Origin: Variovorax paradoxus
GTDB lineage: Bacteria; Pseudomonadota; Gammaproteobacteria; Burkholderiales; Burkholderiaceae_C
Direction of reading: 5' to 3'
Length of the DNA: 64,000 bases
Assembly: GCF_009498455.1 (NCBI RefSeq)
Contig: NZ_CP045644.1
Location: 1,395,001-1,459,000, forward strand
The notes below the pieces were generated by a model that worked only from the letters and a program-made list of their open reading frames with translations, had not been told where the DNA came from and did no database searches. Positions 2,111-10,935 of the stretch are shown one piece after another. Both the position numbers and the translations under genes were made by a program. Numbering within the stretch: position 1 is the stretch's first letter; every line of letters begins with the position of its first letter.

Positions 2111-2845
2111 TCAGGCGCTGCGGCCCTTCGCCACGAGGCGAATGCCGGGCATGAGTTCGGCGGCGAGTTCGGGCCGTTCGAGCGCGTAGTCGAGGTTCAT
2201 GCGCGCGATCTCGACATGCTCTTCGCCGAGCGCCTGCGCCCGCGAACCCTGGCCGCGCTCGATTGCCTGCACCATCGCGTGGTGCGTGCGGTGCGCCTGC
2301 CGCATCCATTGCTGGCCCTCTTCCATCGACGACTGCATGGGCAGCATCGCGCTGGGCGCGGCAAAGGGCTGGCCGCCGAGCATGTCCATCACGCGCTTGA
2401 GCGCGAGGTTGCCGCAGCCTTCGAGGATCAGCTTGTGGAAGCGGTCGTTCATCTCGACGTACGCGGCGTAGTCGTCGATCTCCATGCTGGGCTTGTTGAC
2501 GGCGCGGTCGCCCTCTTCCAGGCAGTCTTTCAAGTCGCGCAGCAACTGGCGCGACACGCCGTCTTCGGCCAGCAAACGGGCGGCAAAACCTTCGATCACC
2601 CCGCGCACGCGGATCGCGTCGGCCACTTCCTGCGAGGTGAAGCGGCGCATCTGGTAGCCGCCGCTGGGCGACTGCTCGATCAGGCCTTCGTGCTCGAGGC
2701 TGGCCAGCGCCAGGCGCACCGGCGTGCGCGAAGCCCCGAGTTTCTCGGCCAGCGGGATCTCGGCCAGCCGCTCTCCGGGCACGAATTCGCCCTTGAGGAT
2801 CAGGTCGCGCAGTTGCACGAGCACGCGGGATTGTTGGGAGTCCAT
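2111..2845 (-). CDS. GntR-family transcriptional regulator with FCD ligand domain
   Basis: Predicted regulator of the divergent Rieske/glutamine-synthetase-like/ABC operon. It has 244 residues: an N-terminal winged helix (about 5-70, with the phrase ASRTPVRLALASLEHEGLI) and an all-helical FCD effector domain (about 80-220, with MNDRFHKLILEGCGN supplying typical metal or carboxylate-binding residues). FCD regulators usually bind a carboxylated metabolite and repress a neighbouring catabolic operon. ATG at 2845 was chosen because the frame remains open upstream with non-protein-like residues and MDSQQSRVLVQLRD is a normal GntR start. Its stop lies 16 bases from that of the metallophosphoesterase gene. 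Confidence 0.88.
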   Translation of the reverse strand: MDSQQSRVLVQLRDLILKGEFVPGERLAEIPLAEKLGASRTPVRLALASLEHEGLIEQSPSGGYQMRRFTSQEVADAIRVRGVIEGFAARLLAEDGVSRQLLRDLKDCLEEGDRAVNKPSMEIDDYAAYVEMNDRFHKLILEGCGNLALKRVMDMLGGQPFAAPSAMLPMQSSMEEGQQWMRQAHRTHHAMVQAIERGQGSRAQALGEEHVEIARMNLDYALERPELAAELMPGIRLVAKGRSA

Positions 2846-2940
2846 CGGGAGGCGCCAGGGCAGCAGGGAGAGGGATGAATGGGCGGATTCTAGGAGAAGC
2901 GCCCGCCGCTGCACGCAGCATAGCCAAACGGGCGCGTTTG

Positions 2941-2955
2941 TTGCATGCAGTGCAA
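2941..2955. promoter_or_regulatory. Candidate GntR operator, site 1
   Basis: TTGCATGCAGTGCAA is a 15-base interrupted palindrome (TTGCA/TGCAA arms) in the 297-base gap between the divergent GntR and Rieske genes, about 95 bases before the GntR start. Its 11-base core TTGCATGCAGT occurs again in inverted orientation in the second site at 3076-3099. The repeat in a divergent regulator/operon gap is seen directly; the role as an operator is inference. Confidence 0.45.
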
Positions 2956-3048
2956 ACAGATGTGTGTCAAAAACCCACAAACACCTCAGAGCTAACCCTA
3001 TATATGGCGCCTCACAGCCCCAAAACAGGGCGAGTAAGCCGATGAAAG

Positions 3049-8482: not shown

Positions 8483-9441
8483 AGCCGCTGAGCCTCTCTC
8501 CCGCGCAACTGCGCGGGGCCGAAATCGCCTTCTGGCTCGCGCTCGCGTCGAGCTTCTTCCTCTTGCCCGACAAGCTCACGCTGATGAGCCAGATCATGAT
8601 CTTCGGGCTCTTTGCCGTGTCGCTCGACATGGCGCTGGGCTACGCGGGCATCCTCACCGTGGGCCACGCGGCCTTCTTCGGCGCGGGCGCCTATGCGGCG
8701 GGCCTGCTCGCCAAGTACGGCTGGAGCGAGCCCTTCAGCGGCCTGCTGTTCGCGCTCGCCGTGTGCGCCCTGCTGGGCTACGTGCTGAGCTACCTCGTGG
8801 TGCGCGGCGCCGACCTCACGCGGCTGATGATCACCATCGGCGTGTGCGTGCTGCTGTTCGAGCTGGCCAACCGGCTCTCGGGCATCACGGGCGGCACCGA
8901 CGGCCTGCAGGGCGTGGTGATCGCGCCCGTGCTCGGCCTGTTCGACTTCGACCTCTACGGCAAGACCGCGTTCGGCTATGCCTTCGGCGTGGTGCTCGCG
9001 ATGTTCCTGCTCGTGCGGCTGGTGCTGCGCTCGCCCTTCGGCCTCGCGCTGCGCGGCATCCACGACAGCCGCAAGCGCATGACGGCCATCGGCTCGCCGG
9101 TGGAAGCGCGGCTGCGCATGGCCTACGCGATGTCGGCCGCGGTGGCCGGCGTGGCGGGCGCGCTGCTGGCGCAGACCACGCAGTTCGTCGGCATCGAGTC
9201 GATCAGCTTCAACCGCTCGGCCGAAGTGCTCATCATCCTCGTGCTCGGTGGCACCGGGCGGTTGTACGGCGGCCTCATCGGCGCCATCGTCTACATGCTG
9301 GTGCACGACTGGTTCGCCGACATGAACCCGCAGTACTGGATGTTCTGGCTCGGCATCTTCCTGATCGCGGCCGTCATGCTGGGACGCGGCGGGATCATGG
9401 GCGCGCTCTCGCGCGTGGTTCGCACGGGGAAGGCGCGATGA
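8479..9441 (+). CDS. Branched-chain-type ABC transporter permease (LivM-like)
   Basis: Second membrane subunit, 320 residues, with about nine to ten hydrophobic segments. It has the LivM block SLDMALGYAGILTVGHAAFF near residues 47-67 and the coupling segment HDSRKRMTAIGSPV near 195. It overlaps the LivH-like gene by four bases (ATGA) and is in turn overlapped by the LivG-like gene in the same way, so the subunits should be made in balanced amounts. It forms the translocation channel with the LivH-like protein. Confidence 0.9.
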   Translation: MKPLSLSPAQLRGAEIAFWLALASSFFLLPDKLTLMSQIMIFGLFAVSLDMALGYAGILTVGHAAFFGAGAYAAGLLAKYGWSEPFSGLLFALAVCALLGYVLSYLVVRGADLTRLMITIGVCVLLFELANRLSGITGGTDGLQGVVIAPVLGLFDFDLYGKTAFGYAFGVVLAMFLLVRLVLRSPFGLALRGIHDSRKRMTAIGSPVEARLRMAYAMSAAVAGVAGALLAQTTQFVGIESISFNRSAEVLIILVLGGTGRLYGGLIGAIVYMLVHDWFADMNPQYWMFWLGIFLIAAVMLGRGGIMGALSRVVRTGKAR

Positions 9442-10214
9442 GTTCCACCCCCACGAACACCACGCACGCGCTGCGCACGCAGAACCTGGGCATCCGCTTC
9501 GGCGCCTTCCAGGCCGTGAGCGAGGTCAACCTGTCGCTCGAACCCGGTGCGCGGCAGGCGCTGATCGGCCCCAACGGCGCCGGCAAGACCACGCTCATCA
9601 ACCTGCTCACGGGCGTGTTCAAGCCCACCAGCGGATCGATCCGCCTGGGCGAGCGCGACATCACGCGGCTGCCCGGCGACAAGCGCGCCCGCATGGGGCT
9701 GGCACGCACCTTCCAGATCAACACGCTGTTCCCCAGCCTCACGCCACTCTTGTCGGTGGTGCTCGCCATCAGCGAGCGCGAAGGCCTGGGCGCCACGTGG
9801 TGGCGGCCGCTCAAGGGCTGCACCGCCGTGTTCGACGAAGCGCATGCGCTGCTGGCCACGCTGAAGCTCGACGCCCTGGCCGACGTGCCCGTGGCCGAGC
9901 TGGCCTACGGCAAGCAGCGGCTGCTCGAGATTGCGCTGGCGCTCGCCGCCAAGCCCCGCATCCTGCTGCTCGACGAGCCCGCCGCCGGCGTGCCGGAAGA
10001 CGAGAGCGGCGAACTCTTCGAAGCCATTGCGGCGCTGCCGGCCGACATCAGCGTGCTCTTCATCGAGCACGACATGAAGCTCGTGTTCCGCTTTGCGCGC
10101 CGCATCTCGGTGCTGGTGGGCGGACGCATCCTCACCGAAGGCACGCCCGCCGAGATCGGCGCCGACCCGCGCGTGCGCGAGGTCTACCTGGGAAGCTCGC
10201 ACCACCATGGCTGA
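9438..10214 (+). CDS. Branched-chain-type ABC transporter ATPase (LivG-like)
   Basis: Cytoplasmic ATPase of 258 residues. Walker A is GPNGAGKT at 44-51, the signature region reads LAYGKQRLLEIA (the LivG variant of LSGGQ), Walker B is ILLLDEP, and the switch histidine sits in FIEHDMKLV. The start ATG at 9438 overlaps the LivM-like stop, and the last eight bases overlap the LivF-like gene. It energises import together with the LivF-like ATPase. Confidence 0.9.
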   Translation: MSSTPTNTTHALRTQNLGIRFGAFQAVSEVNLSLEPGARQALIGPNGAGKTTLINLLTGVFKPTSGSIRLGERDITRLPGDKRARMGLARTFQINTLFPSLTPLLSVVLAISEREGLGATWWRPLKGCTAVFDEAHALLATLKLDALADVPVAELAYGKQRLLEIALALAAKPRILLLDEPAAGVPEDESGELFEAIAALPADISVLFIEHDMKLVFRFARRISVLVGGRILTEGTPAEIGADPRVREVYLGSSHHHG

Positions 10215-10935
10215 AATCGCCGCACTTGCCTTCGACCGCGTGACCGCCGGCTACGGCAACGCCGTGGTCCTCGACCGCCTCGATTTTTCGCTGCGGCCTG
10301 GCGAAAGCCTGGCCATCCTCGGGCGCAACGGCGTGGGCAAGACCACGCTGCTCGAAACGCTGATGGGCAACACCCGCGTGATGCAGGGCGCGATCCGCTG
10401 GCAGGGCGCCGACATCACGCGCTGGCCTTCGCACCAGCGCGTGCGCGCGGGGCTGGGCTGGGTGCCACAGGAGCGCGAGGTGTTCCCTTCGCTCACGGTG
10501 GAAGAAAACCTCACGGTGGTCGCCCGCCCGGGCAGCTGGACCTTGCAGCGCGTGTACGAATTCTTTCCGCGTCTGCGCGAACGGCGCGGCAACTACGGCA
10601 ACCAGCTCTCGGGCGGCGAGCAGCAGATGCTGGCCATCGGCCGCGCGCTCATGACCAACCCGAAGCTGCTGCTGCTCGACGAGCCCATGGAAGGCCTCGC
10701 GCCGATCATCGTGGAAGAGCTGGCGGCAGCCATCCGGCGCCTGTGCGAATCGGAAGGCCTGGCCTCGATCGTGGTGGAGCAGCACCCGGTGCTGGCGCTG
10801 GACATGACGCACCAGGCGATCGTGCTGGAGCGCGGCACCGTCGTGCACGCCGGCCCGAGCGCGGCGCTGGCGGCCGACAAGGAACTGCTCGAAGGCTTGC
10901 TGGGCGTCGGCATCGCCGAGGCGCCGGCCGATTGA
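10207..10935 (+). CDS. Branched-chain-type ABC transporter ATPase (LivF-like)
   Basis: Second ATPase of 242 residues. Walker A GRNGVGKT is at 39-46, the signature LSGGEQQML lies near 135, Walker B is LLLLDEP, and the switch histidine is in VVEQHPV. It is the last gene of the GntR-controlled operon; its stop is five bases from that of the convergent membrane-protein gene and no hairpin terminator was seen between them. The Liv-type importer is complete (receptor, two permeases, two ATPases). Confidence 0.9.
   Translation: MAEIAALAFDRVTAGYGNAVVLDRLDFSLRPGESLAILGRNGVGKTTLLETLMGNTRVMQGAIRWQGADITRWPSHQRVRAGLGWVPQEREVFPSLTVEENLTVVARPGSWTLQRVYEFFPRLRERRGNYGNQLSGGEQQMLAIGRALMTNPKLLLLDEPMEGLAPIIVEELAAAIRRLCESEGLASIVVEQHPVLALDMTHQAIVLERGTVVHAGPSAALAADKELLEGLLGVGIAEAPAD

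Follow-up and report, generated by a model that had tools for sequence, protein, structure and literature searches.

In Hydrogenophaga intermedia PBC, transposon mutagenesis led to the sad operon, which consists of the Rieske oxygenase gene sadA, the glutamine synthetase (GS)-like gene sadB and a ferredoxin gene and converts 4-aminobenzenesulfonate (sulfanilate) to 4-sulfocatechol; Gan et al. describe this operon as conserved across Hydrogenophaga and consider it likely that its original substrate was a natural compound, as yet unknown, similar to 4-aminobenzenesulfonate (PMC5632844). In the degradation of aniline (PMC4539516) and of 1-naphthylamine (PMC11335346), it is the glutamylated amine that serves as substrate of the dioxygenase. 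NpaA1, a gamma-glutamyl ligase for 1-naphthylamine from Pseudomonas sp. JS3066, is described as binding its amine by E232 and E234, in a pocket lined by the loop V68–M81 of the neighbouring subunit, with F75, F86 and W235 forming the bottleneck of the tunnel (PMC11335346). The subject of the present study is a nine-gene cluster of Variovorax paradoxus, located in a stretch of 64,000 nucleotides (the window) that covers positions 1,395,001–1,459,000 of the 7.29-Mb contig NZ_CP045644.1 (assembly GCF_009498455.1). On balance, we favour the reading that it is a sad-type operon by which an anionic arylamine is taken up and degraded aerobically, 4-aminobenzoate (PABA) being the likeliest candidate.

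In this cluster, the gene of a GntR/FCD regulator (−) is divergent from the genes of a Rieske oxygenase, a GS-like ligase, a ferredoxin and the importer LivKHMGF, all of which lie on the (+) strand (Table 1). The original prediction, made from the DNA letters, had placed the nine genes in this order and on these strands, and Pfam matches above each family's cut-off confirmed the domains of all nine; its gaps of 11 bases (Rieske–GS) and 5 bases (GS–ferredoxin) were verified, and gene content together with Pfam bore out that the cluster holds neither a reductase nor a gamma-glutamyl hydrolase gene. The Rieske protein carries the cluster-binding motif CPH...CAFH and DPAHASYLH, and the best NCBIfam match of the ferredoxin is of the ISC/adrenodoxin type. 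The operon therefore unites an alpha-only Rieske oxygenase, a GS-like ligase and a 2Fe-2S ferredoxin, which is the mark of the sad type. In a 2012 study, deletion of sadB reportedly abolished dioxygenase activity in E. coli. The combination had been called unfamiliar in the prediction; since the same trio was already described as the sad operon (PMC5632844), it is of a known kind; the novelty, within the literature searched, lies in the lineage, equipped with a dedicated importer, and in the natural substrate proposed for it.

Across 84,980 species genomes, 209 homologous loci were confirmed in one scan, and the best 80 of these 209 were analysed. The block proposed earlier for a conservation check indeed recurs across them: the Rieske gene abuts the GS gene by a strict test in 79/80 loci, the sole exception being L071, where the GS match is split in two and the Rieske gene abuts the first part. 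The GntR gene is present in 75/80 loci, a ferredoxin gene follows within 1 kb downstream in 71/80, and all five Liv proteins are encoded in 56/80; the gene block is more than a chance arrangement. The closest named GS homologue among the 80 loci belongs to Variovorax boronicumulans (98%). Within the genus, a window-type GS was found in 57 of 101 genomes (79–100% identity, two of them fragments). The search of the family (399 genomes, E ≤ 1e-140) gave 32 matching genomes, with 21 genomes at 73–100% identity and 12 matches at 48–50%, none in between and one genome with both.

At the same time, a GS-like match was found in 49 of 67 Hydrogenophaga genomes (E ≤ 1e-100), and in all eight chromosomal copies that were opened the Rieske gene adjoins the GS gene, followed in most by the ferredoxin gene. 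These copies, being the ones common in the genus, are presumably the sad operon reported as conserved there; the comparisons with sad rest on this assumption, and hence on copies from the genus rather than on the PBC sequences themselves. Like the window, they hold the trio in this order, together with a GntR-type regulator and the pocket lysine discussed below, but they continue with an FAH-family gene and one for a DctP-like binding protein (by eye), whereas the window has LivKHMGF. The window proteins are 43–46% (GS) and 59–61% (Rieske) identical to theirs.

Maximum-likelihood trees were built from 69 GS rows and 67 Rieske rows, which represent 33 of the 80 loci and otherwise come from plasmids and further genomes. 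In both trees, support of 100/100 separates the aniline/naphthylamine rows from the rest and unites the sad clade as a single group, which arises from within the window-type rows. The latter do not form a single clade: 3 changes are required on the GS tree, where the NovoRL4, Nitratireductor and Pseudooceanicola plasmid rows stand on long branches outside the remaining window-type rows. The branch of the sad clade is itself long (1.4) in the GS tree, and its exact position is unsure. The window type occurs in one of the 67 Hydrogenophaga genomes, G529 (GS 83%), alongside its presumed sad copy (GS 44%). We had considered the window operon an orthologue of sad and dropped this, as the Hydrogenophaga copies form their own clade and G529 holds both types; because of this separate lineage the claim was lowered to “sad-type”. 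As placed by these trees, the window GS and Rieske proteins group with sad-type proteins but belong to a lineage separate from that of the presumed sad operon of Hydrogenophaga. Loci L109–L112 carry sad-clade Rieske–GS pairs from other Comamonadaceae beside genes resembling those of gentisate 1,2-dioxygenase, the FAH family and a TRAP transporter, a context possibly reflecting yet another substrate.

The nature of the substrate can be approached through the amine pocket of the ligase. The best solved relative of the window GS is NpaA1 (416 bits; entries 8wwu, 8wwv and 8x6z), and the extra N-terminal pocket loop of arylamine gamma-glutamyl ligases (GoaS; NpaA1, AtdA1) is present. In an alignment of 67 GS-like rows (47 window-type, 13 sad-clade and 7 aniline/naphthylamine), both glutamates of the amine-binding pair are kept in all 67; GlnA and PuuA have the second but not the first. 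The position of NpaA1 F75 is occupied by Lys in 47/47 window-type and 13/13 sad-clade rows and by Phe in 7/7 aniline/naphthylamine rows; position 80 is K or R in 44/47 window-type rows, K, R or H in 13/13 sad-clade rows, and A, S or T in 7/7 aniline/naphthylamine rows. The tunnel trio of NpaA1 is thus only partly matched, F86 being kept (window F85), W235 replaced by F232 and F75 by K74. Such a pocket lysine fits, and would be expected of, an amine that bears a carboxylate or sulfonate.

An uncharged arylamine such as aniline, degraded by an Atd/Tdn-type pathway, would agree with the approximately 49–51% identity between the window GS and the aniline-cluster GS and with NpaA1 as the best solved match. 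It is made very improbable by the change of F75 to K in 60/60 window- and sad-type rows, by the alpha-only Rieske protein, which is parted from the aniline alpha subunits at 100/100, and by a binding protein that resembles presumed aromatic-acid binders. The aniline-type reading was dropped on the pocket residue and the Rieske type. The aniline and 1-naphthylamine clusters (AtdA/TdnQ/DcaQ, NpaA) are alike in having a GS-like arylamine ligase, with its Glu pair, that feeds a Rieske dioxygenase; they differ in their alpha/beta Rieske protein, own reductase, GATase and hydrophobic pocket with Phe at 75. The set of alpha and beta Rieske, GATase and reductase genes is absent beside the window GS, in contrast to L103, L113–L115, L118, L140 and L141. 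In one such cluster, on a linuron-type Variovorax plasmid (L104:14745-17979), the aniline genes are partly duplicated, the second alpha/beta pair coming after a broken GS gene and the GATase gene.

An aliphatic amine (isopropylamine, putrescine) as the substrate, or a spare housekeeping glutamine synthetase, is the least probable of the explanations considered. The isopropylamine parallel drawn in the original prediction speaks for it, as do weak type III, GlnA and GGputSyn matches, all far under their cut-offs (for the window GS, 214 bits against 429 for the GlnA model and 208 against 650 for the GGputSyn, or PuuA, model). In a tree with GlnA, PuuA and aniline-cluster GS, part of the comparison that the prediction had called for, the window GS groups with neither GlnA nor PuuA, which are 27–29% identical to it (PuuA 27%) and stand outside on very long branches, and the genome holds a separate GlnA-like gene, the only other one with a Gln-synt_C domain. 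The housekeeping GS and PuuA readings were dropped on the sub-cut-off scores and the tree placement. The prediction is supported in its claim that a GS-like ligase, of the type that glutamylates arylamines, is paired with a phthalate-type alpha-only Rieske oxygenase, a regulator and an importer.

Additional information comes from the neighbours of the operon in relatives. The 11 loci of Cupriavidus, Burkholderia, Trinickia and Caballeronia carry a PF16155 (PnbB) gene in 9/11 cases, a PcaK-like MFS gene in 10/11, a nitroreductase-family gene in 5/11 and a reductase gene in 10/11; the PcaK-like protein of L068 scores 540 bits against the PcaK model, below its cut-off of 770. On plasmids, 9 records have a GS of at least 57.9% identity, and in six of them a PnbB-type gene lies within 12 kb (C. 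necator, C. pinatubonensis, C. insecticola, Caballeronia sp. NK8, P. phymatum and M. nodulans). The other three are Polaromonas JS666, with a 39.5% PnbB relative about 25 kb off, M. aquaticum and N. resinovorum SA1. In M. nodulans, genes for PnbB-type, nitroreductase and binding proteins are lined up in a single run next to the Rieske/GS pair and the ferredoxin/reductase pair. PnbB converts 4-hydroxylaminobenzoate to protocatechuate after nitroreduction of 4-nitrobenzoate (PMC9590159). The PnbB, nitroreductase and PcaK-like neighbours revolve around para-substituted benzoates. The reductive 4-nitrobenzoate pathway (PnbA nitroreductase, PnbB lyase) would have the proposed product protocatechuate in common with the window operon and adjoins the operon in many relatives, but it uses other enzymes and no glutamylation, and it is not adjacent to the operon in the window.

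4-Aminobenzoate is suggested by the sad-type grouping with the same trio as sad, the retained Glu pair, the change of the pocket Phe to Lys, the likeness of the binding protein to presumed aromatic-acid binders, the PnbB, PcaK-like and nitroreductase neighbours in relatives and the presence of PcaGH in the genome. As for the earlier suggestion of an undescribed amine, an amine substrate is retained, but in place of the open-ended form a para-amino aromatic acid is judged the likeliest. Sulfanilate or another sulfonated arylamine, converted to 4-sulfocatechol as by sad proper, has the identical gene trio on its side, as well as K74, which is common to the sad clade and suits a sulfonate equally, and the copy of Novosphingobium resinovorum SA1, which belongs to the same wide group and lies next to a maleylacetate reductase gene. 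It appears distinctly unlikely as the natural substrate, because occurrence in 57/101 genomes of a genus widespread in soil and roots fits a natural compound better, as Gan et al. argue for the Hydrogenophaga operon (PMC5632844), and because the neighbours in relatives are of the 4-nitrobenzoate type and not sulfocatechol genes (the genome of the window was not searched for 4-sulfocatechol genes). SA1 is introduced in that paper as a well-studied 4-aminobenzenesulfonate degrader (PMC5632844). Its plasmid pSA3 has adjacent Rieske and GS genes (66% and 58% identical) and shares the pocket lysine; the differences are the maleylacetate reductase gene, transposases and a CHMI gene alongside, and a separate ferredoxin and reductase pair on the other strand.

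Among 79 scored loci (L077 was omitted, as gene calling gave no score), an AndAa/HcaD-type ferredoxin reductase gene lies no more than four genes after the GS gene in 39, and in 0 of the 21 that share the LysR/phosphoesterase flank of the window, which points to its loss, or original absence, in the lineage of the window. The reductase gene of PBC is presumably also located elsewhere. Hydrolase-like genes were found in 22/80 loci, of class-I GATase type in 14 (L009, L023, L038 and 11 more) and of PuuD-like peptidase C26 type in 8 (L070, L073–L075 and L079–L082), never both in one locus; these unrelated types look like alternatives for one job. A search of the genome for a GATase like those of the relatives gave one match only, at 34% over part of the protein. 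The absence of a hydrolase gene from the window cluster does not amount to a missing step, because the dioxygenases of aniline and 1-naphthylamine degradation take the glutamylated amine.

Another amino aromatic acid (3-aminobenzoate, aminosalicylate, 4-amino-3-hydroxybenzoate or aminophenylacetate), or a hydroxylation that keeps the amine and is followed by hydrolytic removal of the glutamyl group, is an unlikely but not negligible alternative. In its favour are L044 and L119, with carboxymuconolactone-decarboxylase (CMD)-like, RidA and 3-HAO-like genes by the GS gene, five sad-clade loci outside Hydrogenophaga, some beside gentisate-pathway-like genes (by eye), and the hydrolases just described. 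The PnbB/PcaK context, however, leads to para-substituted benzoates and protocatechuate. The GATase of aniline clusters has a protective role. It is not needed for the oxidation; it is reported there as part of the initial system, with the glutamylated amine being what the dioxygenase attacks (PMC4539516). At L044:1921-7044 and L119:6056-10923, the variant operon runs Rieske–GS–CMD–RidA–3HAO–LivK–GATase, without a ferredoxin gene. We take this arrangement to resemble the 4-amino-3-hydroxybenzoate route of Bordetella sp. 10d.

For 4-aminobenzoate, the following route can be envisaged. LivKHMGF would take up the aminobenzoate, and the GS-like enzyme, whose class follows from its family, would use ATP and glutamate to form gamma-glutamyl-4-aminobenzoate. 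The Rieske oxygenase, supplied with electrons by the operon ferredoxin and a reductase presumably encoded elsewhere in the genome, would dioxygenate the ring at the nitrogen-bearing carbon and its neighbour, whereupon glutamine would leave and protocatechuate remain, by analogy with sadABD, which gives 4-sulfocatechol, and aniline dioxygenase, which gives catechol. Protocatechuate could be used, since the genome encodes PcaH (335 bits, above the curated cut-off), with PcaG beside it, as well as a LigA-domain protein with a LigB-like neighbour; the product would probably enter the PcaGH ortho pathway.

With respect to uptake, the best solved relatives of the binding protein are 4ey3/4eyg/4eyk (356 bits), 4evs and 4f06, which we presume to be R. 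palustris binders of 4-hydroxybenzoate, vanillate and protocatechuate. Regulation may proceed from TGCATRCA sites between the divergent genes, to which the GntR/FCD protein would bind: at least one such site is present in 63/64 and at least two in 61/64 GntR–Rieske intergenic regions, against a mean of 0.68 regions in a mononucleotide shuffle control, the 64 regions being related and not independent. The double pattern TGCATRCAN{1,4}TGCATRCA has a single match in the 7.29-Mb genome, ahead of the Rieske gene (reversed-pattern control, 0), and this strict search for a wider regulon or the missing reductase gave no second site.

Several observations weigh against 4-aminobenzoate or against the route proposed for it. 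The search of the genome for a close reductase partner, with the protein of a relative, gave best matches of 40% (beside another Rieske gene) and 39%. The neighbourhood in the window is without PnbB, nitroreductase and MFS genes, and the relatives that have them are 64–68% identical in GS. The Pfam name PF16155 by itself is weak evidence, the family having members outside 4-nitrobenzoate pathways: the only PF16155 protein of the genome is 29–34% identical to the PnbB-type group and lies in a probable box (benzoyl-CoA) cluster. A CHMI-like tautomerase gene, found nearby in 10 loci, is unexplained by 4-aminobenzoate; the 3-HAO-like dioxygenase and RidA of L044 and L119 suggest a product that retains the amino group (an amino-phenol); and since the copy of the sulfanilate degrader SA1 falls inside the same wide group, sulfanilate fits too. 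The literature search did not find the ligands of 4ey3/4eyg/4eyk, 4evs and 4f06 among the matches listed. Finally, the assignment to 4-aminobenzoate is built on sequence comparison and gene context, with catalysis, growth and expression as predictions. The PF16155 gene of the genome (72 kb in window coordinates) was also considered as a genuine PnbB gene and dropped, as its neighbours look like a box cluster. This box-like cluster (L100, G000:C1 about 1,461,000–1,477,000), just past the window end, contains the DUF4863/PF16155 gene and its own Liv importer.

If 4-aminobenzoate is the substrate, genes would be assigned to aerobic 4-aminobenzoate catabolism. PABA, a folate precursor, is released by bacteria and plants, and the operon would tie it to the carbon and nitrogen supply of soil- and root-dwelling bacteria. 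Moreover, the change from Phe to Lys at one pocket residue would serve as a rule separating charged-arylamine ligases from aniline ligases. More tentatively, with a little less than an even chance of being right, we propose that the block and its relatives constitute a widespread, dedicated aerobic route from 4-aminobenzoate via gamma-glutamyl-4-aminobenzoate to protocatechuate with its own importer, and that the sad operons for synthetic sulfanilate are offshoots of this natural group; the original role of the sad enzymes would thereby be explained. 4-Aminobenzoate is thus a candidate for the natural substrate that Gan et al. left unnamed (PMC5632844). In the literature searched for aminobenzoate glutamylation, no report of a route via gamma-glutamyl-4-aminobenzoate was found.

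Table 1 Genes, putative operator sites and amine-pocket codons of the sad-type operon (positions within the window)
Feature	Position	Strand	Length (aa)	Evidence
GntR/FCD regulator	2111..2845	(-)	244	Pfam: GntR 51.8 bits, FCD 69.6 bits
Putative operator TGCATGCA (palindrome)	2942..2949	(.)		TGCATRCA conservation
Putative double operator TGCATACA-AC-TGCATGCA ahead of the Rieske gene	3079..3096	(+)		
Rieske oxygenase alpha subunit, SadA-like	3143..4474	(+)	443	Rieske 71.3 bits, LigXa_C 89.4 bits
GS-like arylamine gamma-glutamyl ligase (predicted), SadB-like	4486..5931	(+)	481	Gln-synt_C 260 bits
K74 codon (NpaA1 F75 position, amine-pocket loop)	4705..4707	(+)		alignment
K79 codon, second basic residue of the pocket loop (NpaA1 S80)	4720..4722	(+)		alignment
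E229 and E231 codons, equivalents of NpaA1 E232/E234	5170..5178	(+)		alignment
2Fe-2S ferredoxin	5937..6260	(+)	107	Fer2 33.8 bits
Periplasmic substrate-binding protein, LivK type	6358..7563	(+)		Peripla_BP_6 236 bits
ABC permease, LivH type	7622..8482	(+)		BPD_transp_2 109 bits
ABC permease, LivM type	8479..9441	(+)		BPD_transp_2 112 bits
ABC ATPase, LivG type	9438..10214	(+)		ABC_tran 101 bits, BCA_ABC_TP_C
ABC ATPase, LivF type	10207..10935	(+)		ABC_tran 123 bits

Elsewhere in the window, an amide/urea-use cluster was recognized by eye at 24810-36627, with a second Liv-type importer, a formamidase/amidase-like gene (29578-30552), an NCS1-like permease gene, CbbQ- and CbbO-like genes, and genes for an AmiC-like binding protein and an AmiR-like ANTAR regulator. 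At 61440-63571, again by eye, a cyclase/formamidase-like gene is followed by a fumarylacetoacetate-hydrolase-like gene, and a sulfonate/nitrate-type ABC importer stands ahead of this pair.

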